From Microbacterium natoriense (GTDB lineage: Bacteria; Actinomycetota; Actinomycetes; Actinomycetales; Microbacteriaceae), in contig NZ_JAUSXV010000001.1 of the NCBI RefSeq assembly GCF_030816295.1, forward strand, positions 4,030,001-4,094,000: a stretch of 64,000 nt of DNA, given 5' to 3'. A program made the position numbers and the translations under genes. The notes under the pieces are model-generated. The model was given only the letters and a program-made list of their open reading frames with translations. It had not been told where the DNA came from and ran no database searches. Of the stretch, positions 41,670-64,000 are shown in pieces. Position 1 is the stretch's first letter, and each line of letters opens with the position of its first letter.

Positions 41670-44495
41670 TCAGCCGCAGGTCGCTGCGGGGTACCCGACC
41701 GTCAGCGTCTGTTCACGGGCCGTGACCGTCACCTCTCCCGCGGAGATGTCCGCCGAGCGTGTCGCGGCGGTCGCCGAGCGGCTGCCGTCGGCGACGATCG
41801 ACGAGATCGTCTTCGTGCCGTAGACGGTCGCGATGTCGGCATCCGTCGCCTCCTCCCCCGAGTTCTGCACGGTCGTGACGAGCTGCACCTTGCCTGCCAC
41901 GCACCGCGTGGTGATCGCCGCCGACACCTCGAGCGTGGTCTCGCCCACCGCCAGCACCGGGATCTTCAGATATGAGCCCGGGGTCGCGAAGGTGAGGCGC
42001 ACGGCCGATGCGAGCACCGGCTCGAACACGACCGACGTGGGCTTTCCGTTCGCGCTCGGCACGACGTTCTGCGCGCCGGTCGCGTGCCAGGCGCCCTTCT
42101 CGTCCAGGTACTCGACGCTGATGCCCGCGATCACGCCTTCGATGTTGGTGAATCCGATGCGGTCGACCACGTGCGCCTGAGCGGGCTGCACAGTGAAGGT
42201 CGCCGACGGCCGCACCGTCGACGCCCAGGTAGACCACGCGGTCGCCGCACTGCCGTCGCAGGCGTTCGCGGCGGGCAGGGAAGCGTACTCGGTCTGGTGG
42301 AAGCTCGCAGACACGGTGGTTCCGGCGGCCGAGCAGATGTCCTGGCTGCTGTCGGCGCCCCAGATCTGCACTTCCGAGATCGACTGCCAGGTGCTCGTCG
42401 CCGTGGTCAGCTGCAAGCGGATGCCGTTCGTCTGCGGAAGGGTCGACAGATCGAAGGTCGCCACGGGAGCGGATGCTGCGGCATCCTGCGCCAGGTCGAC
42501 CGACACATCGGCCGACACCCAGTCGCCTGCGGCATCGAGGTATTCGGCCGCGACCGTCGAGGGCCAGGTCGCGCCGGCTCCGTCCTTGTAGGTGTGCACC
42601 ACGACCTGGTCGACATCCTGCGCGAACGGCCACGAGAACGACAGCCAGCTCGACTTCGGGTACGCGCCGCCGGCCACCCAGTCGTCCCAGCCTTTGCCCT
42701 TGACGCTGCCGTCGACCAGCGTGCCGCTGAGCTCCGGGCGGCTCGACACCGCGACCGCCGACCGCGCAGCGAGGTTCACGATGCCTTCCGTGGCCACCTC
42801 GATCGTGCGTGTGAACGCGCGACCTGCACCGAACCGGTCGTCACCCGACAGGGTTCCGGTGATCGTCTGGGTGCCGCGCTCGGCGAACGACGTCGCACTC
42901 CAGGTCACCGGCGTCGCCGCGGTCACACCGCCCGCGGCCACAGGCACGGTGGCCGGCAGCGCATCTGCGAAGTCCTCCCCCGGTGCGACGGTCTTCGGCA
43001 GCCCGTCGTCGACGACGCTCCAGATCTCCTCGCCTGCGCCCTTGTCGTCCCAGTAGGAGGCGTCCCATCCGCTCGCCCACCGCGTCGGATCCTCGACGGC
43101 CGGGTTGCGCATCTCGGCGCGGCCGTTCTCGCCGATCGTGATCGGGAGCCACACGTACGTCGAGTCGGCGGCGCCCGCATTCCAGCGGTCGCCCATGTAG
43201 ACGAAGCGGCCGCCGCCGAGATCGAGCACGTTGGTCGACTGCGAGCCGAACGTGGTGCGGCGGGTGTCGCCGACCGACAGCAGGCCGTCCCCTCCCTCGG
43301 GGATCGAGCTGTACGAGACGTTCTCGTTCGCGTCGCCGCTCTCCACTCCGCGGATCCAGGATCCGAGGATGCTGTCAGCGGTGTAGTAGGTCTGCGGATT
43401 CGGGCCCCAACCGGTGGCTCCGGACGCGACGGCGTAGTACCTGCCGCCGTGCTGGAAGAGCGCAGGCGCCTCGAGCATGCCGCACTCCTTGACGATCTGG
43501 AAGTCCTCGCCGCGCACGGGCGCATCAGCGGAGCCGTCGGCGAACAGGTAGGGGTAGCGTCCGTCTTCCGAGAACTGGTGCGCGTTCGCCATATCGGTCG
43601 ACGTGGTGTGCGTGACGTTGGTGTACGAGTCGTCGAGCTCGGCGACGTACAGCGAGCGGTTCTCCTCCGAGGAGTACACGATGTACGCGGTGCCGTCGCC
43701 ATCCTGGAAGACCGTCATGTCCCGGGCCTGACCGGGAACGGCAGCGGATGTGCAGGCCTTGTAGTCGGTGCGGTTCGGCATCCGGTACACCCCGGTGAGT
43801 CGGAACGGACCCGTCGGGCTGTCGGACACGGCGACCCCGGCCATGGACCGCGCGTACATGCTGCCGCCCGGCGTCGTCTGCCCGTCGGAGTGCCACCACA
43901 GCACCCATTTGCCGGTGCTCTCGTTGTAGAGCGCTTTCGGGCGCTCGAAGATCGTCGTGAGGTCGGCGGCGTCGTTCGTGTCGAGATGGTAGGCCAGCTC
44001 GGCGATGCGGTCGGCCCGTGGCTGGCCGTCGTCGTCGACGGTGTCGTAGAGCGCGTCGAAGTAGTCGGATTCCAATTCGGATGCGGCGGAGACCGACCTC
44101 ATCACGACGCCCTGGTCCTGCCAGTTGAGGGTGTCATAGGACTTGTAGGCGTGCACTCCGGGGCTGCCGTAGTAGCCGTTGCTGCGGTCTTCGCCGTACC
44201 AGTAGTACACCGTGCGCCCGTCTTCGGACCCGGTGACCACGTCGCCGCCGTCGACGCCGAGTTCCTGCGCCGACACGATCGCCCCGCCGTGCGCCTGGAT
44301 GTGCGAACCGTTGTCGTCGAACCAGAAGGGGGCGAAATAGCCTGCCGCGGTCGCACCGGGATCCTGAATAGCGGGATACGCCGTGTACGTCGTCGGGTCG
44401 CCTGCAGGGACCTCGGCCTGCGCGGACGCCGCGGCCACCATGCTCAGTGCGACCGTGAGACAGGTCGCCGCGGCGACCGTCCTGATTCTCTTCAT
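41670..44495 (-). CDS. Secreted GH43 glycosidase, exo-beta-1,3-galactanase-like, multi-domain
   Basis: The protein has 941 residues; ATG 44495 (MKRIRTVAAATC) opens a signal peptide cleaved near ASAQA. The GH43 five-blade domain (about 35-480) shows HIQAHGGAIVSAQELG, VYYWYGEDRSNGYYG and TIFERPKALYNESTGKWVLW. The YWYGE and ERPK signatures resemble the GH43_24/34 group that includes galactan 1,3-beta-galactosidases. It is followed by an Ig-like/Big_4 domain, two F5/8C-like carbohydrate-binding domains (with GKGWDDWVAGGAYPKSSW), and an unclassified C-terminal module bounded by RCVAG and TCG. It probably trims type II arabinogalactan. The GTTGACGTCAAC pair upstream is its likely operator. Confidence 0.88.
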   Translation of the reverse strand: MKRIRTVAAATCLTVALSMVAAASAQAEVPAGDPTTYTAYPAIQDPGATAAGYFAPFWFDDNGSHIQAHGGAIVSAQELGVDGGDVVTGSEDGRTVYYWYGEDRSNGYYGSPGVHAYKSYDTLNWQDQGVVMRSVSAASELESDYFDALYDTVDDDGQPRADRIAELAYHLDTNDAADLTTIFERPKALYNESTGKWVLWWHSDGQTTPGGSMYARSMAGVAVSDSPTGPFRLTGVYRMPNRTDYKACTSAAVPGQARDMTVFQDGDGTAYIVYSSEENRSLYVAELDDSYTNVTHTTSTDMANAHQFSEDGRYPYLFADGSADAPVRGEDFQIVKECGMLEAPALFQHGGRYYAVASGATGWGPNPQTYYTADSILGSWIRGVESGDANENVSYSSIPEGGDGLLSVGDTRRTTFGSQSTNVLDLGGGRFVYMGDRWNAGAADSTYVWLPITIGENGRAEMRNPAVEDPTRWASGWDASYWDDKGAGEEIWSVVDDGLPKTVAPGEDFADALPATVPVAAGGVTAATPVTWSATSFAERGTQTITGTLSGDDRFGAGRAFTRTIEVATEGIVNLAARSAVAVSSRPELSGTLVDGSVKGKGWDDWVAGGAYPKSSWLSFSWPFAQDVDQVVVHTYKDGAGATWPSTVAAEYLDAAGDWVSADVSVDLAQDAAASAPVATFDLSTLPQTNGIRLQLTTATSTWQSISEVQIWGADSSQDICSAAGTTVSASFHQTEYASLPAANACDGSAATAWSTWASTVRPSATFTVQPAQAHVVDRIGFTNIEGVIAGISVEYLDEKGAWHATGAQNVVPSANGKPTSVVFEPVLASAVRLTFATPGSYLKIPVLAVGETTLEVSAAITTRCVAGKVQLVTTVQNSGEEATDADIATVYGTKTISSIVADGSRSATAATRSADISAGEVTVTAREQTLTVGYPAATCG

Positions 44496-44532
44496 GCCAC
44501 TCCCTCGTGATCGGAGCGTCGTCGCCCCGCAT

Positions 44533-44559
44533 GTTGACGTCAACTGAGTTGACGTCAAC
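44533..44559. promoter_or_regulatory. Two tandem GTTGACGTCAAC palindromes upstream of GH43
   Basis: Two perfect 12-base palindromes at 44533-44544 and 44548-44559 are 15 bases apart start to start. They lie about 38-64 bases upstream of the GH43 ATG, in promoter position. A central CG and 12-base symmetry fit LacI-family regulators, though the sequence differs from the other two operator families in this window. Confidence 0.7.
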
Positions 44560-44599
44560 ACACATACAACCAGAAGGTTCGAGAGGCACGCAAGGAGAC

Positions 44600-44623: not shown

Positions 44624-44631
44624 ATCTCAGA

Positions 44632-45570
44632 TCAGAGCGCCCGGATCCGCCAGTCGGCCGAGTGCTCGGCGCCGGGCTCGAGCACCACGAGATCGGTGCC
44701 GGAGTTGAAGGCGTCGGGCGGGCACGTCATCGGCTCGACCGCGAGGCCGATGCGGTGGATGTCGTCGAAGCCGGGGTTGTCGGCCGTGTGGATCTGCACC
44801 CACGGGCAGCGCTCATCCCAGGTCATCGCGACACCGGTGCCGGCATCCGTCACCAGGCGCACCTCGGCGATGCCGTCGGTGCGCGAGAGTCCGGTGAAGG
44901 CGTGATCGATGAACACGTCGCCGATCGGCCGCGACGTCTGGAAATCCCACTCCGGATGCGCGGCGACGGGTTCCACGGAGACCGGGCTCAGGCGGTCGGG
45001 CGTGACGGTGAGCACCGCGGATGCCGGGAGCAGCAGAGTCCACTCGTCGACCGGAGGGCCTTGGGTCCCTGAGCCTGTCGAGGGGCCGGCCACGAGATAC
45101 GGGTGCGGGCCCGTGCCCCAGGGGGCGGCATCCGTCCCGAGATTGCGAGCGGTGACCGTCTGCTGCAGGCCGTTCTCGTCGAGCCGATACTCGGTCTCGA
45201 CCTCGACCCGGAACGGGTAGCCCGTCTGCGGCTCGATGACGGCGACCAGCACGACACGGTCGTCTTCGATCACGCGGTGGGCGTACTCGGCCCACGACAG
45301 CAGCCCGTGCAGCGCCTGACCGCGCGCCGGCTCGGTGAGGGCGAGCTGATGCTCGACGCCGTCAAACTCGTAGCGTCCGTCGACGATGCGGTTGGGCCAG
45401 GGCGCGAGCGTGGTGCCCCGATAGCCCGGGCGCACCTCGTCTGCCGCGAAGGGCACGACCAGGTCGCGGCCCTCGTGGGTCAGCGAGCGCAGTGAAGCGC
45501 CGACGCTCGCGATGACCGCCTCGTAGCCGTGCGCCGCGATCCGCAGCTGACGGCCGGAACGGGGCGTCAT
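44632..45570 (-). CDS. Aldose 1-epimerase-family protein
   Basis: The protein has 312 residues. It is the last gene of araD-araB-araA-epimerase and overlaps the araA stop by one base (TGATG). Galactose mutarotase-like features include RGTTLAPWPNRIVDGRYEFDG, the catalytic His in GQALHGLLSW, the second His in GTGPHPYLVAG, and a C-terminal WVQIHTADN with Glu in LAVEPMTCPPDAFNSG. It would interconvert alpha and beta anomers of arabinose or galactose before isomerisation or phosphorylation. After LVAG the protein carries GPSTGSGTQGP, which is the in-frame translation of a dispersed REP-like repeat. Most homologues should lack this stretch. Confidence 0.88.
   Translation of the reverse strand: MTPRSGRQLRIAAHGYEAVIASVGASLRSLTHEGRDLVVPFAADEVRPGYRGTTLAPWPNRIVDGRYEFDGVEHQLALTEPARGQALHGLLSWAEYAHRVIEDDRVVLVAVIEPQTGYPFRVEVETEYRLDENGLQQTVTARNLGTDAAPWGTGPHPYLVAGPSTGSGTQGPPVDEWTLLLPASAVLTVTPDRLSPVSVEPVAAHPEWDFQTSRPIGDVFIDHAFTGLSRTDGIAEVRLVTDAGTGVAMTWDERCPWVQIHTADNPGFDDIHRIGLAVEPMTCPPDAFNSGTDLVVLEPGAEHSADWRIRAL
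45057..45091. repeat. REP-like dispersed repeat, copy B, inside the epimerase gene
   Basis: The reverse complement matches copy A (6505-6530) at 24 of 26 bases. It inserts about 11 codons in frame into the aldose epimerase gene. Confidence 0.75.
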
Positions 45571-47087
45571 CAGAGCCCCTGGGCCAGGCGGTAGTACGCC
45601 TGGTTCCAGCGGACCTGCTTCTGGAACTCGATGAGCGTCGTCTCCTCGTCGATCACGAGCAGCTCGACCTCGGCCATCTCGGCGAAGTCGCGGAACGCCT
45701 CGATGCCGAGGGCCGTCGACATCACGGTGTGGTGCGCGGCGCCCGCCGTCAGCCAGGCCGCGGCAGAGGTGTTGAAGTCGGGAGCCGGCTTCCAGACGGC
45801 ACGGCCGACCGGGAGCTTCGGCAGCGAGGCTCGTGGCTCGACGTTCTCGACGACGTTCGCGGTGAGACGGAAGCGGTCGCGCATGTCGCTGAGCGCGACG
45901 ACCACGGCGGGACCCGAGTCGGCCGTGAAGACCAGGCGCACCGGGTCATCCTTGCCGCCGATGCCGAGCGGGTGGATCTCGAGCGTGGGCTTCGCGGTCG
46001 TGAGCGAGGGCGAGACCTCGAGCATGTGCGCGCCGAGGATGAGCTCGTCACCAGGGGTCATGTCGTAGGTGTAGTCCTCCATGAGGCTCGCGCCACCGGG
46101 GAGCCCTGCGCCCATGACGTTCGCGATGCGCACGAGGATCGCGGTCTTCCAGTCGCCTTCGGCGCCGAAGCCGTAGCCCTCGGCCATCAGGCGCTGCACG
46201 GCGAGCCCCGGCAGCTGCTTGAGCGACCCGAGGTCCTCGAACGAGGTGGTGAAGGCGCCGAAGCCGCCCTCTTCGAGGAACGAGCGCAGGCCGATCTCGA
46301 TCGCGGCGCCGTCGCGCAGCGACTGGTGCCGCTCGCCGCCCTTGCGGAGCTCCGGCACGACCTCATACAGCTCTTCGTATTCGGCGACGAGCGCGTCGAC
46401 GTCCGACTCGGATGCGGCGGCGACGGCATCCGCCAGCTCGTTCACGCCCCACGTGTTCACCTGCACGCCGAAGCGCAGCTCGGCCTCGGTCTTGTCACCC
46501 TCGGTGACGGCGACGAAGCGCATGTTGTCGCCGAAGCGGGCGAGCTTCAGATCACGGCTCGCGGCGAGACCGGCCGCGGCGCGCTGCCAGATGCCGATCT
46601 CGCGCTGCACGCGCGGGTCGGACGCGTGGCCGACGATCGTCTTGCGCGGCACACCGAGGCGCGTCTGGATGTAGCCGAACTCGCGGTCGCCGTGCGCGGC
46701 CTGGTTCAGGTTCATGAAGTCGAAGTCGATGTCGGCCCACGGGAGCTCGACGTTCGCCTGCGTGTGCAGGTGGGCGAGCGGCTTCTGCAGGGCATCGAGA
46801 CCCGCGATCCACATCTTCGCGGGGCTGAATGTGTGCATCCAGGCGACGAGTCCGATGACGTTCTCTGCCGCGTTCGCCTCGAGCGCCGTGCGCTTGATGG
46901 CGGCGGAGTCGGTGAGCACCGGCTTCCAGACGATCTTCACCGGCACGTCGCCCGCCTCGTCGAGCAGACGCGCGATCTCCTGCGACTGCTCGGCGACCTG
47001 CGCGAGCGTCTCGGGGCCGTACAGGTGCTGGCTGCCGGTGAGGAACCAGACCTCGTACTGGTCGAGGGAGGTGGTGAGCTTCGGCAT
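45570..47087 (-). CDS. araA: L-arabinose isomerase
   Basis: The protein has 505 residues, normal for AraA. It begins [20 protein letters not shown], a signature of the family. The catalytic and metal-site region includes [43 protein letters not shown] (Glu ligands), [20 protein letters not shown] (His ligands) and [11 protein letters not shown] near the end. It isomerises L-arabinose to L-ribulose with Mn2+. It is nine bases after the araB stop and overlaps the epimerase start. Confidence 0.97.
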
Positions 47088-47096: not shown

Positions 47097-48674
47097 TTAG
47101 AGTGCGGTGGTGGCGGCGGCCTCGATGGCGAGGCCTGCGCGGTAACGGTCGAGGTAGGCGGTGAACCCGGCCACGTCGGCGGGGTCGGGATCGACGACGG
47201 AGACGGATGCGGTGGCGAACACGCTCTCGTCGAGATACGCGGCCAGCGGCTCTGCGTGACCGAGGTAGGAGGCGAGCACGGCGATGCCCCAGGCGCCGCC
47301 TTCGGAGGCGAGTTCGCCCACCGCGACGGGTGCGCCGAGCGCACCGGCGAGGAAGCGCTGGGCGACGCCGGCCGTGCGGAACATCCCGCCGTGCGCGAAC
47401 ATGCGGTCGAGTCCGACGCCTTCGGCGGTGAGGACCTGCATGCCCAGCGCGAGCGTGCCGAACACGCCGTAGAGCTGGGCGCGCATGAAGTTCGCGAGCG
47501 TGAAGGCGCTGTCGGGCGTGCGCACGAACAGCGGACGCCCCTCGTCGAGCCCGGCGATGGGCTCGCCCGCGAGGTGGTTGTAGGCGATCAGTCCGCCGGC
47601 ATCCGCTTCTCCGGCGAGCGCCTCGCGGAAGAGGGCGTCGAAGGCGGCATCGTCGCTCACGGGGTTCCCCGCAGCGGCGGCGAACCGGGTGAACAGACCC
47701 GCCCAGGCCGCGAGCTCTGACGCGCCGTTGTTGCAGTGCACCATGGCGACCGCGTCGCCGGCGGGCGTGGTCACGAGGTCGAGTTCGTGGTGCACCTCGC
47801 CGAGCGGACGCTCGAGGACCACCATCGCGAAGATGCTGGTGCCGGCCGAGACGTTGCCGGTACGCGGCGCGACCGAGTTCGTCGCGACCATGCCCGTGCC
47901 GGCGTCGCCCTCGGGCGGGCACAGCGGAATGCCCGCCGGCGTCGCACCGGTGGGGTCGAGCAGCAGGGCGCCCTCGGCCGTCAGCGATCCGGCCGCCGCA
48001 CCTGCGGGCAGCACGGCGGGGAACAGGGCGGTGAGCGGCGCGGGGAGGCGATCGGCGGCGAGCGCGTCGTACGCCTGCAGCATCCACTCGTCGTATCCGC
48101 CGGTCGTCGAGTCGATCGGGAACATCCCCGAGGCGTCGCCCACGCCGAGAATCCGCTCTCCCGTGAGCTTCCAGTGCACGTAGCCGGCGAGGGTGGTCAC
48201 GAAGTCGAGCTGCGGCACGTGGGCCTCGGCGTCGACGACGGCCTGGTGCAGGTGCGCGATCGACCAGCGCAGGGGGATGTTCACACCGAACAGCTCGGTG
48301 AGCTCGGCGGATGCTGCGCCCGTGTTGGTGTTGCGCCAGGTGCGGAACGGCACGAGAAGCTCGCCTTCGGCGTCGAACGCGAGGTAGCCGTGCATCATCG
48401 CGGAGATGCCGATCGCGCCGAAGGTCGCAGGCCTCACGCCGTAGCGATCGTGGGCGTCGGCGACGAGATCGGCGAACGCCGACTGCAGGCCCGCCCACAC
48501 CTCGTCGAGTCCGTAGGTCCACAGGCCCTCTTCGAGCTTGTTCTCCCACGAGAACGCGCCGGTGGCGAGCACCTCGGTGGCATCGGAGCCGATCAGGCAG
48601 GCCTTGATGCGGGTCGAGCCGAATTCGATGCCGAGGCTCGTGCGGCCGGCGACGATGTCTTCGCGGCCGCTCAT
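47097..48674 (-). CDS. araB: L-ribulokinase, FGGY family
   Basis: The protein has 525 residues from ATG 48674, which overlaps the araD stop (ATGA). The N-terminal FGGY domain starts SLGIEFGSTRIKACLIGSDATE (phosphate-loop type). Later it has GTGMVATNSVAPRTGNVSAGTS and FAHGGMFRTAGVAQRFLAGAL, the ATP-binding GG. By position between araD and araA it phosphorylates L-ribulose to L-ribulose 5-phosphate. Sequence alone would also fit xylulokinase-like FGGY kinases, so context decides. Confidence 0.92.
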   Translation of the reverse strand: MSGREDIVAGRTSLGIEFGSTRIKACLIGSDATEVLATGAFSWENKLEEGLWTYGLDEVWAGLQSAFADLVADAHDRYGVRPATFGAIGISAMMHGYLAFDAEGELLVPFRTWRNTNTGAASAELTELFGVNIPLRWSIAHLHQAVVDAEAHVPQLDFVTTLAGYVHWKLTGERILGVGDASGMFPIDSTTGGYDEWMLQAYDALAADRLPAPLTALFPAVLPAGAAAGSLTAEGALLLDPTGATPAGIPLCPPEGDAGTGMVATNSVAPRTGNVSAGTSIFAMVVLERPLGEVHHELDLVTTPAGDAVAMVHCNNGASELAAWAGLFTRFAAAAGNPVSDDAAFDALFREALAGEADAGGLIAYNHLAGEPIAGLDEGRPLFVRTPDSAFTLANFMRAQLYGVFGTLALGMQVLTAEGVGLDRMFAHGGMFRTAGVAQRFLAGALGAPVAVGELASEGGAWGIAVLASYLGHAEPLAAYLDESVFATASVSVVDPDPADVAGFTAYLDRYRAGLAIEAAATTAL

Positions 48675-49390
48675 CGGCGGGCGTCCGCGTTCTGGCCGTA
48701 CACGTTCTGATACCGGTTGAAGAGGCTGTCGATCGCCTCCTGCGGGATCGGGATGAGCGGCCCCGCCTCGCGGGCGAGGTGCACGGTGCGTGCGACGTCC
48801 TCGACCATGACGGCGGCCTTCACCGCGTCTTTCGCGTCCACGCCGATCGTGAACGGTCCGTGGTTCTGCATGAGCACCGCACGGCTGCGGTGCCCACGCA
48901 GGGTCTCGACGATCCCGCGGCCGATCGAGTCGTCGCCGATGATGGCGAAGGGGCCGACCGGAATCGGTCCGCCGAACTCGTCCGCCATGGCGGTGATCAC
49001 GCAGGGGATCTCCTCGCCGCGCGCAGCCCAGGCCACCGCGTAGTCGGAGTGGGTGTGCACGACGCCGCCGACCTCTGGCATGTTGCGGTACACGTAGGCG
49101 TGCGCCGCCGTGTCGCTCGACGGGCTGCGTTCGCTGCCGGCGGTGCCGGGGACGACGTTGCCATCGAGATCGCACAGGATCATGTTCGAGGCGTCGAGGT
49201 CGTCGTAGCTCACACCGGAAGGCTTGATCACGAACAGTTCAGCGCCGGGGACACGGCCGGAGACATTGCCGCCGGTCCAGACGATGAGGTTGTAGCGCAC
49301 CAGTTCGCCGTGCAGGCGGGCGACGTCCTCCCGGACGGTCTGGATGGCTGCTTCGACCTCGGGGGTGAAGGCGGGGGCTTCGCTGCTCAC
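48671..49390 (-). CDS. araD: L-ribulose-5-phosphate 4-epimerase
   Basis: The protein has 239 residues in the class II aldolase family. Motifs are GGNVSGRVPG, MILCDLDGNVV, VVHTHSDYAVAWA (zinc His-x-His) and AVLMQNHGPFTIG (third zinc His). It converts L-ribulose 5-phosphate to D-xylulose 5-phosphate. I take GTG 49390 as the start: GAGG lies six bases upstream, and the alternative GTG 49420 falls inside the palindromic operator at 49415-49434. First gene of araD-araB-araA-epimerase, probably repressed by the adjacent LacI protein. Confidence 0.95.
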   Translation of the reverse strand: MSSEAPAFTPEVEAAIQTVREDVARLHGELVRYNLIVWTGGNVSGRVPGAELFVIKPSGVSYDDLDASNMILCDLDGNVVPGTAGSERSPSSDTAAHAYVYRNMPEVGGVVHTHSDYAVAWAARGEEIPCVITAMADEFGGPIPVGPFAIIGDDSIGRGIVETLRGHRSRAVLMQNHGPFTIGVDAKDAVKAAVMVEDVARTVHLAREAGPLIPIPQEAIDSLFNRYQNVYGQNADARR

Positions 49391-49414
49391 GGGTACCTCT
49401 TCGGTGCTGTCGAC

Positions 49415-49434
49415 GGTCACTGTGACCGGTCACA
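49415..49434. promoter_or_regulatory. Overlapping palindromes upstream of araD, probable LacI operator
   Basis: TGTGACCGGTCACA (49421-49434) is a perfect 14-base palindrome with central CG. GGTCACTGTGACC (49415-49427) overlaps it as an odd palindrome. They lie 25-44 bases upstream of the chosen araD start, between it and the LacI gene that ends at 49499. Confidence 0.75.
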
Positions 49435-55125: not shown

Positions 55126-56739
55126 CGGATCTCCTCCTCGAGAGTCTCGGACGCGGGTTCCGCGTCGTTCACGACGTTCGCTGCGAGCTCCTCTTCGAGG
55201 GTCTCGGCGGCCGCCTCGACGCCGTGGGCGGCGATCACGTCGACGATCTCCTGCGCGGTCACGTCGGGGCCGTTCTGGATCTCGCCGATCTTGCTGTGGT
55301 CCTTGAGCACGACGATGCGCTCCGAGAGGCGGACCACCTCCTCCAGCTCGGACGAGACGAACACGACCGCGACACCCGTGTCGGCGAGCTCGGCCACCGC
55401 CTCCTGGATCTCGGCCTTCGCGCCCACGTCGATGCCGCGGGTCGGCTCGTCGAGGATGAGCAGCTCGGGCTCGGTGGCGAGCCAACGTCCGAGCAGCACC
55501 TTCTGCTGGTTGCCGCCGGACAGGTTCTTGATCATCCGCTCGGGGTCCGCGGGGCGGACGTTGAGCTCGGCGATGTACTTGTCGACGATCGCGTCCTGCT
55601 CCTTGCGCGGCATCGGCCGCGCCCAGCCGCGCTTCGCCTGCACGGCGAGGATGATGTTCTCGCGGATCGTCAGGTCGCCGATGATCCCTTCGTCGCGCCG
55701 GTTCTCGGTCGAGAACGCGATGCGCTGCGAGAGTGCGGCGGAAGGAGACGTGAGGTCGACCTTGCGACCCTTGACCGTGATCTGGCCGGATTCCGAGCGG
55801 TCGGCGCCGTAGAGCAGGCGCGCGAGTTCGGTGCGACCGGAGCCGAGCAGACCCGCGAAGCCGACGACCTCGCCGGGACGGATGTCGAGATCGGTGGCGT
55901 TCACAGCCCCGGTGCGGGAGATGCCGGATGCCGACAGGAAAGATTCTTCATCGGCGTCGCGCGGCGTGGTGCGGCGGTTGCCGCCCAGCGACTTCAGCGC
56001 GTCGAGGTCCTTGCCGATCATCTTCGAGATGAGGGCGTGCCGGTCGAGTTCGCGGGTGAGGTACTCGCCCACGTACTGTCCGTTGCGCAGCACCGTGAGC
56101 CGGTCGCTGATCGCGTAGATCTGGTCGAGGAAGTGCGAGACGAAGAGGATCGCGACGCCCTGGTCCCGAAGCGTGCGTATGACGGCGAAGAGGCCCTCGA
56201 CCTCGGCGGCGTCCAGGCTCGAGGTCGGCTCATCGAGGATGAGCACCTTCGCCTTGATCGCCATGGCGCGGCTGATGGCGACGAGCTGCTGCATCGCGAT
56301 CGAGAGCGTCGAGAGCGGCTTGCGGGTGTCGAGGTAGTCGAGCCCCAGTCGGGCGAGGGCGTCGGTGGCGGCCTTGTGGGTGGCCCTCCAGTTCACGCCG
56401 AACGGACCGCGGATCTCGTGCCCGAGCATCACGTTCTCGCCGATCGTGAGGTTGGGCGCGAGGTTCACCTCCTGGTACACGGTGGAGATCCCGGCGGCCT
56501 GCGCGTCGCCCGTGCCGGCGAAGCTGCGCTCCTGACCCGCCACGACGATCGAGCCGGAGTCGATCCGGTAGACGCCGGTGAGCGCCTTGATCAGGGTCGA
56601 CTTGCCGCGCGCCGTTCTCGCCCATGAGCGCGTGCACCTCGCCCTGGAAGAGGCGGAAGTCGACACCGTCGAGCGCCTTCACTCCGGGGAACTCGATGGT
56701 GATCCCGCGCATCTCGACGATGGGCAGTTCTTCGTTCAT
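55122..56739 (-). pseudogene. ytfR: Sugar ABC transporter ATPase (YtfR-like), frameshifted in Walker A
   Basis: Two overlapping frames together make a CUT2 ATPase of about 539 residues with two ABC domains. The first (start ATG 56739, [20 protein letters not shown]) runs to [12 protein letters not shown]; the second resumes at [12 protein letters not shown]. The sequence GGCGCGCGGCAAG has one base more than an in-frame GGCGC(G/C)GGCAAG, so the shift is inside the first Walker A (56605-56612). The paralogue at 58001-59530 is intact there. Later elements ([32 protein letters not shown]) are normal. It is either a real lesion or a base-calling error in a GC run. Confidence 0.85.
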
Positions 56740-56763
56740 CGCTGTCTCTCAGTCTGTTCCGGC

Positions 56764-56798
56764 CCTGGAGGCGGCGCGCGGTGCGCACCGCCTCCAGG
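56764..56798. terminator. Intra-operon hairpin after the binding-protein gene
   Basis: CCTGGAGGCGG pairs with CCGCCTCCAGG (perfect 11 bp, GC-rich loop). It lies 15 bases after the binding-protein stop and before the ATPase start in an operon. Such hairpins commonly let binding protein be made in excess by partial termination or by protecting the 3' end. Confidence 0.7.
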
Positions 56799-56812
56799 TC
56801 ACGGGGTCTTGC

Positions 56813-57820
56813 TCAGTACTTGCGGTCCGCGAGGACGGCCTTGGCCGCCTCAGCCGAGTCGAACGCCTCGCTCGGCACGACGATGTACGACTCCACCTTG
56901 TCGCCGTCGAGAGCCTTCTTGACGACGTCGAGAGCGGTCTCGCCGAACAGCGGGTTGTACTCGTGCACGTAGCTGAGCTGACCGTCGGCGAGCGCCTGCA
57001 TGGCGTTCTTGGTGCCGTCGATCGTGGCGATCTTCACGTCGGTGCCGATCACGAGGCCGGCTTCCTCAGCCGCCTGCGCCGCGCCGAGGCCCATCTCGTC
57101 GTTCTGGGCGAAGACGAACTGGATGTTGTTGTTGTTGGCCTTGAGCATGGTCTCGAAGACGCTCTTGCCCTCTTCAGCGGACCAGTTGGCGGTCTGCGCG
57201 TCGAGCTTCACGAGCGACGAGTCGCCGAGACCGGCTTCGAAGCCCTCGTTGCGCTCGTTGACGACGCCGACGCCGGCCGGGCCCTCGAGGACGACGTAGT
57301 TGCCGCCGTCGGGGAACTCTGCCGCAGCCCAGGTGCCGACCTCCTTGGCGACCTCGACGTTGTCGGGCGCGATGCGGGTGACGTACAGGCTCGTGTCGTC
57401 GGGCTCGATGCCGCGGTCGAGCAGGATGACCGGGATCTCGGCCTCCTGAGCGAGCTTGAGCGAGTCCTCCCAGCCGCTGGCCTCGGTGGCCGACAGCAGG
57501 ATGACGTCGACGCCCTCGTCGACGAACGACGTGAACGCGTCGATCTGCGACTTCTGGTCGAGGTTGGTGGCCGGAGCGTACTTGAGCTCGAAGCCGGCAT
57601 CCTCGGTGAACGTGTCCTGGATGTTCTGCTCGTTGGCTTCGCGCCATGCTCCCTCAGGGCCGACGGCCACGAAGCCGACGGTCGTGAGATCGCCCGAGTC
57701 TCCGCTGCCGCCGTCACCACCGGCGTCGCCGCCGCCGCTCGAGCACGCCGCCAGGCCGAATGCGAGCGCGCCGACAGCGGCGAGCCCCAGAACGGTACGA
57801 GTGCGCTTCATTGCAGACAT
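56813..57820 (-). CDS. ytfQ: Sugar ABC transporter substrate-binding lipoprotein (YtfQ-like)
   Basis: The protein has 335 residues from ATG 57820, preceded by AGGAGGAG. The lipobox LAAC (Cys about 26) and a Ser/Gly/Asp-rich linker follow a typical signal. The periplasmic-binding-protein-1 fold shows LTTVGFVAVGPEGAWREANEQ, VILLSATEASGW, VILLDRG and FAQNDEMGLGAAQAAEEAGL, close to YtfQ. It delivers a furanose or oligosaccharide to the adjacent permeases. LacI operators at 57917-57930 and 57985-57998 lie upstream. Confidence 0.92.
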   Translation of the reverse strand: MSAMKRTRTVLGLAAVGALAFGLAACSSGGGDAGGDGGSGDSGDLTTVGFVAVGPEGAWREANEQNIQDTFTEDAGFELKYAPATNLDQKSQIDAFTSFVDEGVDVILLSATEASGWEDSLKLAQEAEIPVILLDRGIEPDDTSLYVTRIAPDNVEVAKEVGTWAAAEFPDGGNYVVLEGPAGVGVVNERNEGFEAGLGDSSLVKLDAQTANWSAEEGKSVFETMLKANNNNIQFVFAQNDEMGLGAAQAAEEAGLVIGTDVKIATIDGTKNAMQALADGQLSYVHEYNPLFGETALDVVKKALDGDKVESYIVVPSEAFDSAEAAKAVLADRKY

Positions 57821-58000: not shown

Positions 58001-59530
58001 TCAGACGTCGGAAGGGCCCAGTTCCGCGGCGATCATCTCCACGATGCTGTCGACCGTGACGCCCGGTCCGTTGCTGAGCTCCCCGATCTTGTCGCGGTCC
58101 TTGAGCACCACGATCCGGTCGCTGAGGCGCACGACCTCCTCGAGCTCGGCGGAGATGAACACCACACCCACGCCGTCGCCCGCCAACTGGCTCACCCGCC
58201 GCTGGATGTCGAGCTTCGCCGCGATGTCGATGCCGCGCGTCGGCTCGTCGAGGATCAGCACGTGCGGTCTGACCGCGAGCGCGCGCGCCAGCAGCAGCTT
58301 CTGCTGCGTGCCGCCGGAGAGGAGCTTCGCGGGCCGGGCGAGATCGGCAGGATCGAGATGCAGCGTCTCGATGTAGGTCTCGGCCAGCGCGGCGGTCTCG
58401 GCGGGCGACAGCGGTCTGGTCCAGCCACGCAGCGCCTGCAGCGACAGCACGATGTTCTCGCGGGCCGTGAGGTCGCCGATGATCCCGTCTGCGCGACGGT
58501 TCTCCGCCGACATGGCGATCCGGCTGCGCAGAGCGGCTGACGGACTCCGCAGCTGCACGTGGTCCCCATCCACGACGATCTCTCCGCTGTCGGCGCGCAG
58601 CGACCCGCTCAGGAGCGAGGCCAGCTCGGTGCGCCCCGACCCGCGCAGACCCGCGAGTCCGACGATCTCGCCGCGGTGCACGTCGATGTCGATCGGGTCG
58701 AGCTCTCCCCTGCGTCCGACCGCCGTGGCGCGCAGCGCCGGCTCGCCGTCGGCCGCGTAGTGATGCGCCTTGCGTTCGGATCCCAGAGCCCGCAGCGCCT
58801 CGAGATCCTTGCCGAGCATCTGCGAGATCAGATCTGCCCGCTCCAGCTCGCGCGTCGGGGTCTCGGCGATCCTCCGGCCGCCGCGGAGCACCGTCATCCG
58901 GTCGCTGATCGCGAAGGCCTGCTCGAGGAAGTGCGAGACGAACAGGATCGCCACCCCGCGGTCGCGAAGCCCTCTGATCACGCGCATCAGCACGTCGACA
59001 TCAGCCTGGTCGAGGCTCGAGGTCGGCTCGTCGAGCACGAGGATGCGAGGGTCGTCCACGACCGAGCGGGCGAGCGCGACGAGCTGCTTCTGCGCCGGTG
59101 ACAGCACCGTCATCGGCGTCTTCGGGTCCATGTCGTCGAGCCCGAGGCGTGCGAGGGCGTCTGCGGCATCCGCTCTCGTGCGACGCCAGTCGATGCCGAA
59201 GCGCCCTCGCCGCTCGCGGCCGAGCATGACGTTCTCGGCGACGCTGAGAGTCGGGCCGAGCTGCGTCTCCTGGAACACCGTGGCGATGCCCGCCGCTCTG
59301 GCGTCGGCGACGCCGGAGAACCGGCGCTCCTCCCCCGCGACGACTACGCTGCCCGCCACCGGGGTGCAGGTGCCGGTGAGCACGCCGATCAGCGTCGACT
59401 TGCCCGCGCCGTTCTCGCCCATCAGGGCGTGCACCTCACCGGGGAAGAGCCGGAAGTCGACGTCGTCGAGTGCGACGACGTCGGGGAATTCCACGCGGAT
59501 GCCGGTGAGCTCGACGATCGGGACGACCAT
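58001..59530 (-). CDS. Second sugar ABC transporter ATPase, intact YtfR paralogue
   Basis: The protein has 509 residues with two tandem ABC domains. The first has GENGAGKSTLIGVLTG, LSPAQKQLVALARS and LDEPTSSLD. The second (about 260-500) has the degenerate nucleotide site of CUT2 ATPases (GLRGSGRTELASLLSG), LSGGTQQKLLLARAL and LDEPTRGID. It starts MVVPIVELTGIRVEFPDVV, overlapping a 25-codon mini-ORF. It lies in the LacI operon and has no permease or binding protein of its own, so it may supply ATPase to the ytfQ-ytfT-yjfF importer, especially if the first ATPase is broken. Confidence 0.9.
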   Translation of the reverse strand: MVVPIVELTGIRVEFPDVVALDDVDFRLFPGEVHALMGENGAGKSTLIGVLTGTCTPVAGSVVVAGEERRFSGVADARAAGIATVFQETQLGPTLSVAENVMLGRERRGRFGIDWRRTRADAADALARLGLDDMDPKTPMTVLSPAQKQLVALARSVVDDPRILVLDEPTSSLDQADVDVLMRVIRGLRDRGVAILFVSHFLEQAFAISDRMTVLRGGRRIAETPTRELERADLISQMLGKDLEALRALGSERKAHHYAADGEPALRATAVGRRGELDPIDIDVHRGEIVGLAGLRGSGRTELASLLSGSLRADSGEIVVDGDHVQLRSPSAALRSRIAMSAENRRADGIIGDLTARENIVLSLQALRGWTRPLSPAETAALAETYIETLHLDPADLARPAKLLSGGTQQKLLLARALAVRPHVLILDEPTRGIDIAAKLDIQRRVSQLAGDGVGVVFISAELEEVVRLSDRIVVLKDRDKIGELSNGPGVTVDSIVEMIAAELGPSDV

Positions 59531-59628
59531 CAGCGCACCTCCCGCGGCACCGCATCGAACGTTCGGGCGACCCGTCCGACCGAGAACCGGATGAGCACGA
59601 CCATCAGCGCACCTCCCGCGGCGCCGCG
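59524..59628. repeat. Direct repeat pair with 74-base spacing between LacI and ATPase genes
   Basis: CGACCATCAGCGCACCTCCC plus GCGGC(A/G)CCGC occurs at 59524-59553 and again at 59598-59627. Each copy carries a gene's end and the next gene's start. Confidence 0.8.
59530..59604 (-). CDS. 24-residue coupled mini-ORF made by a tandem duplication
   Basis: The frame MVVLIRFSVGRVARTFDAVP plus REVR ends in TGA. Its ATG overlaps the LacI stop, and its stop overlaps the ATPase start (TGATG at both joints). Its start (MVV) copies the ATPase start and its end (PREVR-stop) copies the LacI end. It fits a duplication with a period of 74 bases: 59524-59554 and 59598-59628 are nearly identical. It may simply couple translation of LacI to the ATPase. 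A functional peptide is unproven. Confidence 0.4.
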   Translation of the reverse strand: MVVLIRFSVGRVARTFDAVPREVR

Positions 59629-60623
59629 CTGGATCCGCGGGCGACGAGTTCGGTGGGGATGCGGGTCAGCTGCGGCAGCTCGCGCTCTTCGAGCGCGGCG
59701 CGCAGCATCTCGACGACCGCGCCGCCGAGGGCTGTGAAGTCCTGCCGGACGGTGGTCAGCGGCGGAAGGAAGTGGCGGGCGAGCGGCACGTCGTCGAATC
59801 CGACCACGCTGAGATCCTTCGGAACCTCGAAGCCCTTGTCGTGGAGGCCGTGGATGAGGCCGATCGCCATGTCGTCGTTCGCGACGAACACGGCCGTGTA
59901 GTCGGGCAGCCGATTCAGCCCCTTCGCGAAGTCGTAGGCGAAGTCGGCGGTCCAGTCGCCCACGACGATGGGCCGCTCGCGGATGCCCCACGACTTGGCC
60001 CTGGCGTGGAAGGCGCGCTCGCGCGCGCGGGCGTCGAGCCAGTCGAGAGGACCCGCGATGTGGAGGATGTCACGATGGCCCAGCGCCACCAGGTGATCGA
60101 CGACGAGCCCCGTCCCGGCCTGCTGATCGATCGAGACGGTGAGGAAGGTGGGGTCGGCGTCGGCCTTAACGACGAGCATCGGCACGTTCAGCGAGATGCG
60201 GCGCAGCGCCGCCACGGACGACGAGCGCGGGGCGATCACGCACAGCGCGTCGACGCCCTGTGCCGTGAGGTTGTCGACCGCATCCTGCGGCGAGAGCGTG
60301 TCACCTTCGTGCAGGGCCACCGCCGTGACCGAATAGCCCGAGGTGCGCGCGGCCATCTCGACCGCACGGAGGATGCTGGTCGGCCCGAACGACACCGCGC
60401 TCTCGATGATCACGCCGATGCGCCGGGTGCGCTGGGTCGCGAGCGCCCTGGCGACCATGTTCGGCCGGTAGTCGAGCTCCTCGATGGCCTCGAGCACCCG
60501 CCGACGCGTGTCGGGTTTGATGTTGGGGTGATCGTTCAGCACCCGAGAGACGGTCATGTGCGAGACGCCGGCGAGGTCCGCCACGTGGCGGATGCCGGGT
60601 TTGTCCGAACCGAGGCTGGCCAT
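59604..60623 (-). CDS. LacI-family regulator of the ABC importer
   Basis: The protein has 339 residues from ATG 60623 (MASLGSDKPGIRHV). The HTH is IRHVADLAGVSHMTVSRVLNDHPN and the hinge VARALATQRTRRIGVII. The effector domain ends VVGFDDVPLARHFLPPLTTVRQDF. It is 49% or so alike in layout to the other LacI protein at 49499 (an estimate by eye). Its own promoter carries TGTTACCGAGAACA, the same motif as the two sites upstream of ytfQ, so it very likely represses itself, the second ATPase and the importer. The longer upstream frame is rejected because it includes the operator. Confidence 0.92.
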   Translation of the reverse strand: MASLGSDKPGIRHVADLAGVSHMTVSRVLNDHPNIKPDTRRRVLEAIEELDYRPNMVARALATQRTRRIGVIIESAVSFGPTSILRAVEMAARTSGYSVTAVALHEGDTLSPQDAVDNLTAQGVDALCVIAPRSSSVAALRRISLNVPMLVVKADADPTFLTVSIDQQAGTGLVVDHLVALGHRDILHIAGPLDWLDARARERAFHARAKSWGIRERPIVVGDWTADFAYDFAKGLNRLPDYTAVFVANDDMAIGLIHGLHDKGFEVPKDLSVVGFDDVPLARHFLPPLTTVRQDFTALGGAVVEMLRAALEERELPQLTRIPTELVARGSSAAPREVR

Positions 60624-60773: not shown

Positions 60774-63700
60774 TCACCGGCACGCCCCCGCGAGGTACGC
60801 GAACTGCAGGTTCTCCGTGATGCGGGTGCCGCCGGCATCCGCTCCCAGCTCCACCTGCGCGGCACCGGCGGGGAAGGCCGTGAGCCTGGTGGCCTGGGCG
60901 ATCGAGGAGCGGGCGTCCGGCTGCACATCCGACAGCGTCTTGCTGCCGTAGGGCGTGGTCACCGTGATGTCTGTCGCGACATCTCCCGTGTTCGTCACGG
61001 TCAGCACCAGCTGCGCCCTGCCGGCGACGCAGCGCACCGAGGTCGACACCGCAGCATCGAGATCGGGCACAGCCGCGGCCGTGAAGGCGAGCGTGTAGGT
61101 GCGCACGGCGCCCGACGGTGCGGTGACCACGATGCGCGCCTGGCCGGCGGCATCCGCCTGTGCGACCTCGACGGTCGCGTCGCGGTCGACACCGACGGCA
61201 CGCACCGTCGGATACTCCGCACCCTGCCACGGCACCTCGTACGCGGTGACGTCGGAGGAGAACCCGGCCAGCGGCACGCCGTCGAGGGTGATCGCGGCGA
61301 GGGCGTCGACGGTCGAGGGGCTGGGCGCGGCGGCGTACAGCTCGACCTCCGACACGATCATGTGCGTCGCGGCGCGAGCGGTCATGACCACGCGCACGGC
61401 ATCCGCCTGCACGCCGTTCATCGGCACCTCGACGATCGGCGCAGTGCCGTCCGCCGGCACCGGCACGTCCACCGTGCCGAGCGAGGTCCACGCCCCCGAT
61501 CCGATGCGGTGCTCGACCGACAGCGATTGCGGCCAGCTGTTCGACGAGCCGTCCTTGTAGAAGAAGAGCTTCGCGCTCTGCATGGTCGATCCGTGCGCGA
61601 GCGTGTAGGTCAGCGTGTCCTGGGTGTTCTTCGTGCCGGACCTCCAGTTCGACCAGCCCTTGTCGGCGGTGAGACCGTTCTTGGTGCGATCGACGCCGTA
61701 GCTCGAGCTCTCGGTGAAGGTGGCGGACGCCGTGCTCTGCGGCGCGATGTTCGCCGCCGACGGCGCGGTCACGACGACCGACAGCTTCGCGACGAGGTCC
61801 ACGCCACCAGGGGCCTTCGCGGTTCCGGCGACCGTGACGACCCCGGTGTCCGCGAACGAGGCGTCGGAGACGCCCGACCAGTCCCACACGACCGGCACGT
61901 CGACCCGCTGGTCGGTCGCGCCGACGATCGCCGGAACCGCGGCGGGCGCCGCGGCCTTCACCGTCGATGCCGGAGCCCCGGCGTACGTGGTGAGCGACAC
62001 CGGATCCGTGAGCGACACGGACCCGACCTCGACGACGGCGATCGCCTCGAAGGCGACGCCGAACAGGTCGGTGCCGGAGCCTGCGATCGTCTGGGTCCCG
62101 GCGACCTTCCAGTCGACTCCCGCGGTGTTCCAGGTGACGGGCGCCGTGCGCTCCACGCCTCCGCGATACACGAGCGTGGCGTTCGCCGGCAGGGCAGGGG
62201 CCGTGCCTGTGGCGGTGCCGACGGCGACCTGCTCGACCGACACCAGGCCCGTGTCGGCGAGCGTCCACAGCTGGTTCGCACCGTCGTTCGACGTCCACAA
62301 GCCCACCCCTGCTCCATCGGCCGAGCTCTGCCCGTTCACGTCGAGCACGCGCTCGTTCGAGACGCTGAGGATCGAGAACCTCGTGCCGTCGGTGGTCGAC
62401 GAGATCCACTGCAGGGCCGGATCGCTCGCCGCCTGCTCGAGCGTCGCAGTCGCCATCGTGACTGCACCCCCGGACTCGGCGAGGAAGCGTCCGTCTCCCG
62501 ACTGCAGCGCGAAGCGGTGACGATCCGTGCCTTCGCCCGCGAGGGTGCGCACGGTCCAGGTCTGGGCGGTAGCGGCATCCGTCGTCGTCGCCGAGGTGCG
62601 GATGACGGCGGCCGAACCCGACGCGGCGAGCGCCTTGCCGCTCTGCGCGCCGAACAGCTGGTAGCTGTGCCCGTCGCGCAGCGCGGTCGCCTCATCCGAC
62701 ACACCGGAGACGCCGGAGACCACGAGCGTGACGACCGACTTGCCAGGCACCGTGAGGGTGGCCGACCGGGTCGCCGCGTTCACCGGCACCGGAGCGCCCT
62801 CGACCAGAGCGTTGGAGGTCGGGTCGGCCTCGGTGGACTGCGTGGTGACGATCGGGGTGACCGTCGCCCCCGGGGAGATGGTGCCGAAGCGCGACAGATC
62901 GATCGTCAACTCGCGAGCCGAGGCCTCGGTGTTGACGTGCACGAGGGTCGCGCCGTCGCCGGCGGCCGACACGGCAGCAGTGGTCTGGGCGTTGCCCGAG
63001 GGGATCAGCGCATCGCCCGGGTGGATGTAGTGCGTGAAGTTGCGCACAGTGTTGTACTTCGCGTTCGTCTTGACCTGGCAGCTCGGGTCGGCATCGCCGT
63101 CGGCGATGCGCCGCTCGGAGTCGCCCTCGGCGTTGCAGTCGAAGTCCACCAGGACCGATCCCCAGTTCAGGTCCTCGACCTTCTCCATGTTGTAGGCGTC
63201 TTCGACGGGCTGCCAGAACACCCAGGCGCTCGGCTCGAGCTCGCGCAGGTCGTCGACGATGCGGCCCGCCATGCCCAGACCGTTCTCGATGTTCGTGAGG
63301 TTGTGCCCTGTGCCGTCCCAGTCGCCTTCGACTTCGCTCATCCAGAGCGGCTTGTCAGCGCTCTTGGCGATGTCGCGCACGACGAGGCGTCCTGAGGTGC
63401 CGTAGGTGTGCACGTTCAGCTGGTCGACCTCGGCCTTCGACGAATCGCTCCAGGCGTTCCAGTTCGTGGCGAAGATCGACGGGTTGGTCTCGTCCATCGC
63501 GGAGATCGGCACGTCGGTCGTGGTGCCGGGTTCGGCGAGGCGAGCGGCCAGCGCCTGGATCATCTGATCCTGTGCCGCCGGGCCGACGTGCGCGCCCTCC
63601 TGACGGCTGGCCGAGGTCGGCCAGCCGTCGCCGCCGAGGGTCGTCGACCAGTAGTTCGTGTTCGGCTCGTTGAACGGATCGAGGCTGTCGAACTGGATGC

Positions 63701-64000
63701 CGTGCTCTTGCTCGATGTGCTCGACGACCGTGACGAGGTAGTCGGCGAAGGCGTCCATGTCGGCGGCGGACAGCTGCTCGGTGCTGCCGTTGCCGATGCC
63801 GCCCGAGACGTAGCCGCTCTGGGTGAGGAAGTACGGCGGGGAGTTGCTGAACGCCTCCCAGTGCGTGATCTTGCCCTTCAGCGCATCGATCCACCAGCGC
63901 TGGGTCGCGTCGGCGTCGAAGTCGTAGCTCGCCGGGTCGTCTCCGTCCCAGGCCGCGCGGTATGCCGCACGGTCGGCGTAGGTGGAGCTCGCGAGATCGG
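60774..64000 (-). CDS. Secreted GH30 glycosidase, endo-beta-1,6-galactanase-like (5' end beyond window)
   Basis: The open frame runs off the right edge, so the N-terminus and signal peptide are missing; at least 1075 residues are seen. The catalytic domain shows ITHWEAFSNSPPYFLTQSGY, the acid/base LDPFNEPNTNYW, and the nucleophile SEVEGDWDG, a pattern typical of GH30_5 beta-1,6-galactanases. An all-beta domain follows. Next come a ricin B-type lectin domain (SYQLFGAQSGKAL, RVLDVNGQSSADGAGVGLW), two Ig-like repeats, an F5/8C-like domain (KGWSNWRSG, FFYKDGSSNSWP), a Big/cadherin-like end and the same RCVAG-to-Cys C-terminal module as the GH43 enzyme. It should cut beta-1,6-galactan side chains of arabinogalactan. 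Confidence 0.9.
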   Translation of the reverse strand, partial: DLASSTYADRAAYRAAWDGDDPASYDFDADATQRWWIDALKGKITHWEAFSNSPPYFLTQSGYVSGGIGNGSTEQLSAADMDAFADYLVTVVEHIEQEHGIQFDSLDPFNEPNTNYWSTTLGGDGWPTSASRQEGAHVGPAAQDQMIQALAARLAEPGTTTDVPISAMDETNPSIFATNWNAWSDSSKAEVDQLNVHTYGTSGRLVVRDIAKSADKPLWMSEVEGDWDGTGHNLTNIENGLGMAGRIVDDLRELEPSAWVFWQPVEDAYNMEKVEDLNWGSVLVDFDCNAEGDSERRIADGDADPSCQVKTNAKYNTVRNFTHYIHPGDALIPSGNAQTTAAVSAAGDGATLVHVNTEASARELTIDLSRFGTISPGATVTPIVTTQSTEADPTSNALVEGAPVPVNAATRSATLTVPGKSVVTLVVSGVSGVSDEATALRDGHSYQLFGAQSGKALAASGSAAVIRTSATTTDAATAQTWTVRTLAGEGTDRHRFALQSGDGRFLAESGGAVTMATATLEQAASDPALQWISSTTDGTRFSILSVSNERVLDVNGQSSADGAGVGLWTSNDGANQLWTLADTGLVSVEQVAVGTATGTAPALPANATLVYRGGVERTAPVTWNTAGVDWKVAGTQTIAGSGTDLFGVAFEAIAVVEVGSVSLTDPVSLTTYAGAPASTVKAAAPAAVPAIVGATDQRVDVPVVWDWSGVSDASFADTGVVTVAGTAKAPGGVDLVAKLSVVVTAPSAANIAPQSTASATFTESSSYGVDRTKNGLTADKGWSNWRSGTKNTQDTLTYTLAHGSTMQSAKLFFYKDGSSNSWPQSLSVEHRIGSGAWTSLGTVDVPVPADGTAPIVEVPMNGVQADAVRVVMTARAATHMIVSEVELYAAAPSPSTVDALAAITLDGVPLAGFSSDVTAYEVPWQGAEYPTVRAVGVDRDATVEVAQADAAGQARIVVTAPSGAVRTYTLAFTAAAVPDLDAAVSTSVRCVAGRAQLVLTVTNTGDVATDITVTTPYGSKTLSDVQPDARSSIAQATRLTAFPAGAAQVELGADAGGTRITENLQFAYLAGACR

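Follow-up and report, generated by a model that had tools for sequence, protein, structure and literature searches.

A C-terminal domain shared by secreted enzymes is genetically linked to a small WxL-like protein in Microbacterium natoriense and other Actinobacteria

Background

How do large secreted enzymes remain at the surface of high-GC Gram-positive bacteria when they carry no familiar wall anchor? The question is raised by a locus of Microbacterium natoriense whose left part lies in a stretch of 64,000 nucleotides, here called the window (RefSeq assembly GCF_030816295.1, contig NZ_JAUSXV010000001.1 of 4,191,385 bases, positions 4,030,001 to 4,094,000). The right-hand part of the window, from position 41670, encodes two secreted glycoside hydrolases (GH) of families GH43 and GH30, and both end in the same C-terminal domain (CTD) of about 90 residues. 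Across about 56 kb it forms the end of eleven secreted proteins, of which two lie in the window, and a small WxL-like protein and a WxLIP-like membrane protein are encoded in the same cluster. We consider the locus to be probably an actinobacterial counterpart of the Csc/WxL clusters of Firmicutes, in which the CTD enzymes would be displayed on the cell surface by way of the small WxL-like protein.

A C-terminal domain common to eleven secreted proteins

In the 4.19-Mb genome the CTD is matched 11 times, always within positions 4071673-4125812 and nowhere else. The profile used for this count was built from these same 11 copies; a wider 70-row profile returned the same 11. A preliminary description of the window had covered the GH43 and GH30 genes and overlooked their CTDs, which profile and alignment revealed here. 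The two carriers and their domains are as follows (window numbering; positions above 64000 extend it rightwards in the same genome).

41670..44495, minus strand: secreted GH43 of the exo-beta-1,3-galactanase type (Pfam GH43 42 bits; F5_F8_type_C 49 bits; C-terminal CTD; gene start set from the signal peptide, judged by eye)
41673..41954, minus strand: CTD of the GH43 protein (RCVAGK...N...YGTK...TR...TC at the C-terminus; profile match 1.5e-31; alignments)
60774..64343, minus strand, past the window edge at 64000: secreted GH30 of the endo-beta-1,6-galactanase type (Pfam)
60777..61082, minus strand: CTD of the GH30 protein (profile match 1.9e-31)

All 11 copies share an R-C-V-A-G motif, single invariant Asn, Gly, Arg and Ala residues, and a Cys at the very C-terminus or beside it. 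A signal peptide stands at the start of all 11 carriers (by eye), and Pfam reported no known wall-anchoring domain (LPXTG, SLH, LysM or PEP-CTERM type) in any of them. Searches of Pfam, NCBIfam and the PDB sequences gave no credible match to the CTD itself. An AlphaFold2 model of the GH43 CTD forms a seven-strand sandwich (mean predicted local distance difference test score, pLDDT, 92.4). In two overlapping sets of aligned CTDs, 67 of 70 and 115 of 119 contain two Cys residues (the 119 comprise the two from the window and others hand-picked from 152) and the remaining three and four contain neither, so that one is never found alone; this pattern is expected if the two form a disulfide. Thus, the CTD is predicted to be a disulfide-locked beta-sandwich.

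A protein-database search with the CTD region alone, which needed exact shared words, yielded just five proteins, and the domain was therefore traced by profile searches of genomes. Among 159 stop-bearing CTD proteins from 79 loci of named genomes, the match ends no more than three residues from the protein end in 154. In one locus (L119, 3361-12519), an open frame of 3052 residues ends in three tandem CTDs, the last of which lacks both cysteines. A domain census covered 41 of 47 dereplicated CTD proteins (148 before dereplication). Among the first 25 of the 52 families listed, 20 of the 41 proteins carry GH43, 17 LamG, and two each GH127, GH59 and GH30, while GH95, GH53, melibiase (which we take to be GH27), GH62 and ThuA occur in single proteins. 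The occurrence of the CTD on so many enzyme families suggests that it marks plant-polysaccharide enzymes generally and no single substrate.

The small WxL-like protein and its membrane partner

Two genes to the right of the window, among those of the CTD carriers, encode the putative surface partners.

71204-72265: WxLIP-like membrane protein
72290-72916: small WxL-like protein

The small protein is identical over 208 residues to one in a Microbacterium metagenome bin. Its first motif is mostly W-Y-V and its second L-S-L, with the YxxxLT context kept. All 18 aligned members of the membrane-protein family match WxLIP_PGBD (PF06030, DUF916) at E<=1, the best at 3e-9, and the alignment has a hydrophobic C-terminal segment (by eye) that fits a C-terminal transmembrane helix. 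DUF3324 is absent from the 24 families matched by any of these 18 members at the same threshold.

The weaker matches to the small protein (at most 108 bits in the family sample described below) lie mostly inside larger reading frames; in the six that were read, the match stops 1-4 residues before the C-terminus. The window genome itself has two such fused WxL-like matches, one of them in a metallophosphatase, beside WxLIP-like genes. At each of these two places (L111 9448-12644, from genome positions 71001-90000, and L112 7454-10375, from 2609001-2628000), a further WxLIP-like gene adjoins one for a large secreted protein that ends in a WxL-like domain, and we read both as actinobacterial WxL-like systems of the fused type.

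Linkage of the two genes across genomes

The linkage between the CTD and the small WxL-like gene is strong. It was followed in two samples that share some genomes, with a match of at least 150 bits taken as strong and the CTD counts per genome being lower bounds, as at most 16 (family sample) or 12 (class sample) candidates were scored in each. Of the 299 family genomes searched, 38 have the CTD (17 of 85 genera) and 18 a strong small-protein match; these 18 span nine genera and all have the CTD (Fisher p 1e-18, kinship ignored). Among 394 genomes of the class, the CTD occurs in 35 and the strong small protein in 20, again all with the CTD, from seven genera. Strong small-protein places start less than 8 kb from a listed CTD in 37 of 39 cases in the family sample and in 24 of 24 in those class-sample genomes that lie outside it.

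Gene order was read on 79 loci, drawn from the best 80 of 322 small-protein matches, with several loci per genome and close relatives consequently favoured. They span Microbacterium, Agromyces, Rathayibacter, Agreia, Arthrobacter, Paenarthrobacter, Glycomyces, Promicromonospora, Tessaracoccus, Actinotalea, Frigoribacterium and others. A CTD protein is encoded on 76 of them, and in 72 its gene directly adjoins the small gene by the distance rule of the script used; the full order of CTD gene, small gene and membrane gene is found in 37. The membrane gene is itself close to the CTD where the homology is best: among the matches listed (148 CTD and 64 membrane-protein places, at least two tandem CTD copies being left out), 22 of the 23 best membrane-protein homologues, own copy included, start less than 5 kb from a CTD, as against none of four and three of 37 weaker homologues within 6 kb.

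A 7.4-Mb actinobacterial genome (G454; L205-L209) carries dispersed pairs of a CTD gene and a small WxL-like gene. The pair is present in all five loci fetched from the seven strong places, which were picked for a listed CTD nearby, and the membrane gene in one of the five.

What the shared domain may do

In the favoured reading, the carriers would be exported by way of their signal peptides, and the CTD would dock non-covalently on the small WxL-like protein, which the WxLIP-like membrane protein, perhaps together with peptidoglycan, would hold at the cell surface. The CTD enzymes would then act as a team at the cell surface; freed arabinose and galactose products would be imported by the YtfQ-type and other importers, and arabinose would be routed by araA, araB and araD into the pentose phosphate route. 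The WxL-like domain is fused to large proteins elsewhere in the same genome and is a free small protein here, which suggests that the CTD takes the place of the absent fusion by docking on this small protein. Since the WxLIP hairpin of Firmicutes is predicted to complete the WxL sandwich (PMC10599100), strand-insertion contacts between the proteins of the CTD system are plausible. A more specific version can be offered only tentatively: the CTD and the small WxL-like protein may be a new actinobacterial docking pair, dockerin/cohesin-like in role, in which many enzymes assemble on one surface protein, possibly by donor-strand exchange (a pilin-like fold), to give a wall-bound plant-polysaccharide complex in Microbacterium, Rathayibacter, Agromyces, Arthrobacter, Glycomyces and others.

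Several observations weigh against the surface-display reading. In the family sample, 20 of the 38 CTD genomes have no strong small WxL-like protein and eight have no small-protein match at all; two of the 39 strong small-protein places have no listed CTD on their contig. In one genome (G106), three CTDs lie far from the WxL-like gene. Three of the 79 loci have no CTD (L150, at a contig end, L183 and L194), and the membrane-protein gene is found on just 53. The co-occurrence statistics take no account of shared ancestry, though the genomes span nine and seven genera. As to the proteins, the Pfam WxL family (PF13731) was matched neither by 21 members of the small-protein family at E<=1 nor in the genome, the fold match of the small protein is moderate, and the WxLIP-like copy of the window genome scores 20.3 bits (E-value 6e-4), under the Pfam cut-off of 27.3.

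The CTD might instead bind the cell wall or a glycan directly, as a new wall- or carbohydrate-binding module, the WxL-like and WxLIP-like neighbours having a separate role. We regard this as rather unlikely, as a generic accessory module is not expected to track one partner gene, whereas strong small WxL-like matches are confined to CTD genomes in both samples (18/18 and 20/20) and the two genes are direct neighbours in most of the 79 loci and in the five fetched dispersed loci of a single genome. It is less probable still that the CTD serves in export or processing, as a signal read and perhaps removed by the WxL-like/WxLIP-like pair as are other C-terminal sorting tags. The nearly constant terminal position of the domain (154/159) and its independence of enzyme type are what a sorting signal would have; however, the protein ends show no hydrophobic segment or sortase-type motif (11 copies, by eye), no protease or ligase was recognised among the genes scanned (part of the locus genes), and a disulfide-locked folded domain would be unusual as a signal. 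That the locus is an ordinary secreted-enzyme cluster, with the common CTD a mere remnant of enzyme gene duplication, is very improbable: several of the eleven are indeed GH43 proteins with the same accessory domains, but the CTD also sits on unrelated catalytic families (GH43, GH30, GH59 and GH127 here; GH53, GH62, GH95 and others elsewhere), which indicates that the tail moved between enzymes or was kept under selection of its own.

The GH43 and GH30 enzymes and their regulation

The preliminary description noted the motifs YWYGE and ERPK in GH43 and FNEP and SEVEGDW in GH30, and likened the two enzymes of the window to the exo-beta-1,3-galactanases of GH43_24 and the endo-beta-1,6-galactanases of GH30_5, which cooperate on arabinogalactan in other actinobacteria such as Bifidobacterium longum. 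The motifs are present in both genes, and the closest solved chains are consistent with the proposed types. For the GH43 protein these are 6eug (deposited as 'Beta-glucanase'; 1e-36) and 7bys (galactan 1,3-beta-galactosidase; 6e-26), followed by 3vsf (deposited as 'Ricin B lectin'; 2e-23) and 5flw (exo-beta-1,3-galactanase; 1e-12). We take 6eug and 6euf, the latter deposited under the same name, to be exo-beta-1,3-galactanases, and 3vsf to be a 1,3-galactanase. The closest chain to the GH30 protein is 24td, a secreted endo-beta-1,6-galactanase (2e-40 over residues 41-503); the protein further contains Ricin-B and Big_4 domains and an F5/8C-like stretch (24.4 bits, cut-off 28.2) before its CTD.

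Both genes are preceded by palindromes of one LacI-type pattern, TGTTGACGTCAACA. A general palindrome scan was swamped by GC-rich sites, and this type alone was taken further.

44532..44560, no strand assigned: two adjacent LacI-type palindromes upstream of GH43, each with one mismatch to the pattern (pattern scan)

The mismatch-free pattern has a single copy in the genome, at 64362-64375, upstream of GH30 and just outside the window. Copies with one mismatch number three, two of them being those upstream of GH43, and 14 places match with at most two mismatches, as against two for the reversed pattern. Because three of the four best copies genome-wide sit upstream of these two genes, GH43 and GH30 are probably under common regulation.

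Arabinose, importer and regulator genes of the window

Between the two enzyme genes lie the following features.

44632..45570, minus strand: aldose 1-epimerase (Pfam PF01263, 144 bits)
45570..47087, minus strand: araA, L-arabinose isomerase (NCBIfam equivalog 797 bits, cut-off 622)
47097..48674, minus strand: FGGY sugar kinase, araB by position (Pfam FGGY_N/C)
48671..49420, minus strand: araD, L-ribulose-5-phosphate 4-epimerase (NCBIfam subfamily 368 bits, cut-off 251)
49499..50512, minus strand: LacI-family regulator (Pfam)
50571..51416, plus strand: NAD-dependent epimerase/dehydratase (Pfam PF01370, 84 bits)
53012..54049, minus strand: CUT2 permease, YjfF-like (best NCBIfam YjfF, 267 bits, under its cut-off of 363)
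54046..55125, minus strand: CUT2 permease, YtfT-like (best NCBIfam YtfT, 258 bits, under its cut-off of 535)
55122..56739, minus strand: CUT2 ATPase gene, YtfR-like by position, frameshifted (three-frame reading; Pfam ABC_tran on the longer frame)
56813..57820, minus strand: sugar-binding lipoprotein, YtfQ-like, galactofuranose-binding type (best NCBIfam YtfQ, 197 bits, under its cut-off of 510)
58001..59530, minus strand: second YtfR-like ATPase, intact (best NCBIfam YtfR, 541 bits, under its cut-off of 850)
59604..60623, minus strand: LacI-family regulator adjoining GH30 (Pfam)

The araD-araB-araA-aldose epimerase group and the two LacI regulators of the preliminary description are thus present, araB resting on its position: the best NCBIfam matches of the FGGY kinase are xylulokinase and ribulokinase (xylulokinase the best), below cut-off. 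The nucleotide-sugar-type epimerase it named corresponds to the NAD-dependent epimerase. Its YtfQRT-YjfF-like importer (53012-57820) stands as far as the best NCBIfam matches, all below their cut-offs, and the closest solved chains of the binding protein (YtfQ 6hb0/6hbd, 3e-66) are concerned, but its first ATPase gene is frameshifted near 56607, in the Walker A region (three-frame reading). The frameshift is either a sequencing error or a sign that the neighbouring ATPase has taken over the role of this gene. The intact ATPase is an orphan without permease genes, placed beside the second LacI gene and 1.3 kb from its frameshifted paralogue.

The locus beyond the window

To the right of the window the cluster continues, with the two genes for putative surface proteins given above among the following.

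64558-65586: LacI
65695-68325: GH43
68370-70928: GH43
73124-77266: GH127 (Pfam 258 bits)
77284-79971: LamG/Big_4 CTD protein without a Pfam catalytic match
80190-83150: GH43-like (24.5 bits, under the cut-off of 32.2)
83166-86066: GH43-like (30.7 bits, under the cut-off of 32.2)
86060-88222: GH43 with Ricin-B (closest solved chain 3akf, arabinofuranosidase, 1e-56)
91294-95283: GH59
95519-97987: GH43 with CBM6 (closest solved chains 3c7g/3c7e, about 6e-103)
Further on: sugar ABC genes
104886-106409: gene with an alpha-L-arabinofuranosidase C-terminal domain (Alpha-L-AF_C)
107504-109003: gene with the same domain

The LamG/Big_4 protein is possibly a divergent GH43. Inside the enzyme cluster, the protein encoded at 88672-89985 has a C-terminal stretch that reads like an HNH endonuclease, presumably of the DUF222 type, and we take both Alpha-L-AF_C genes to be GH51. 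A GH42 gene lies elsewhere in the genome, outside the locus.

Although all the genes of the roughly 22-kb cluster first described are there, its extent was underestimated: CTD proteins reach about 98 kb and the Alpha-L-AF_C genes about 109 kb. The arabinofuranosidase and beta-galactosidase that were missing from the window had been predicted to lie just past its right edge or elsewhere, and arabinofuranosidase candidates do occur past that edge, namely GH127, GH43 enzymes of arabinofuranosidase type (one of them close to 3akf) and the two Alpha-L-AF_C genes, together with GH59. Together with the enzyme types, these genes favour the proposal that the cluster serves arabinogalactan utilisation, and its genes in the window probably form the left part of a locus of about 56 kb for arabinogalactan/arabinan utilisation, a substrate and an activity predicted from gene content.

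Comparison with known systems

The Csc clusters comprise CscA, a DUF916 membrane protein, CscB, a small WxL protein, and CscC, large proteins with a C-terminal WxL domain (PMC1534035), and Csc/WxL clusters occur almost wholly in Lactobacillales and Bacillales (PMC10599100). They share with the present locus the grouping of DUF916-type membrane, small WxL-like secreted and large multidomain secreted proteins (PMC10599100, PMC1534035, PMC9772566, PMC5817068). The small protein here also retains a DxR ahead of the first Trp motif, and its distal motif has the YxxxLTxxL layout. The differences are that this locus is actinobacterial, that its large proteins, mostly recognisable glycoside hydrolases, bear the CTD and no WxL domain, that a single small gene accompanies eleven CTD proteins, and that Leu replaces the second Trp of the WxL motif, the Pfam WxL family being unmatched and DUF3324 undetected. 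Because DUF3324, PF13731 and WxL domains on the large proteins are missing, the locus is likened to a Csc/WxL cluster and not filed as a member. A 2025 paper, which studied an Ang-2 protein from Microbacterium maritypicum, records DUF916 in the gene neighbourhood of such proteins, and its excerpts do not mention the CTD tail (PMC12537917). Searches confined to open-access literature (subscription papers and preprints falling outside their scope) turned up no description of the CTD or of its WxL-like pairing.

Cellulosomes, which we take as a comparison system built on cohesin and dockerin, differ in that the CTD here is a predicted beta-sandwich; Pfam scans of the CTD enzymes matched no dockerin, and none of the proteins scanned matched a scaffoldin with cohesin repeats. 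Chaperone-usher pilins such as FimA, whose fold the small WxL-like protein may resemble, are a further comparison. The type II arabinogalactan systems of Bifidobacterium and Bacteroides, presumably GH43_24 with GH30_5, have the same enzyme pair, judging by closest solved structures, with arabinofuranosidases and importers alongside. They differ in that the present locus has eleven secreted proteins with one common tail and a WxL-like/WxLIP-like pair, and SusCD was not noticed among the genes scanned here. Within the genus, the D-arabinan locus of Microbacterium arabinogalactanolyticum also combines enzymes and an ABC transporter; it targets mycobacterial D-arabinan via GH183, GH172 and GH116, whereas L-arabinose genes with GH43, GH30, GH127 and GH59 are found here (PMC10509167).

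Significance

A hypothesis put forward in 2006 holds that Csc/WxL clusters form surface complexes acting on plant polysaccharides; it was argued from their association with plants, from domains for sugar binding and degradation, and from catabolite control (PMC1534035). Most large proteins of the present locus are recognisable plant-polysaccharide enzymes with one tag, which makes that hypothesis testable. A portable C-terminal tag would also serve as a surface-display tool. If the CTD enzymes are indeed displayed by way of the small WxL-like protein, the system would provide a specific explanation of how high-GC Gram-positives can keep at the cell those large secreted enzymes that have neither an LPXTG nor an SLH anchor.

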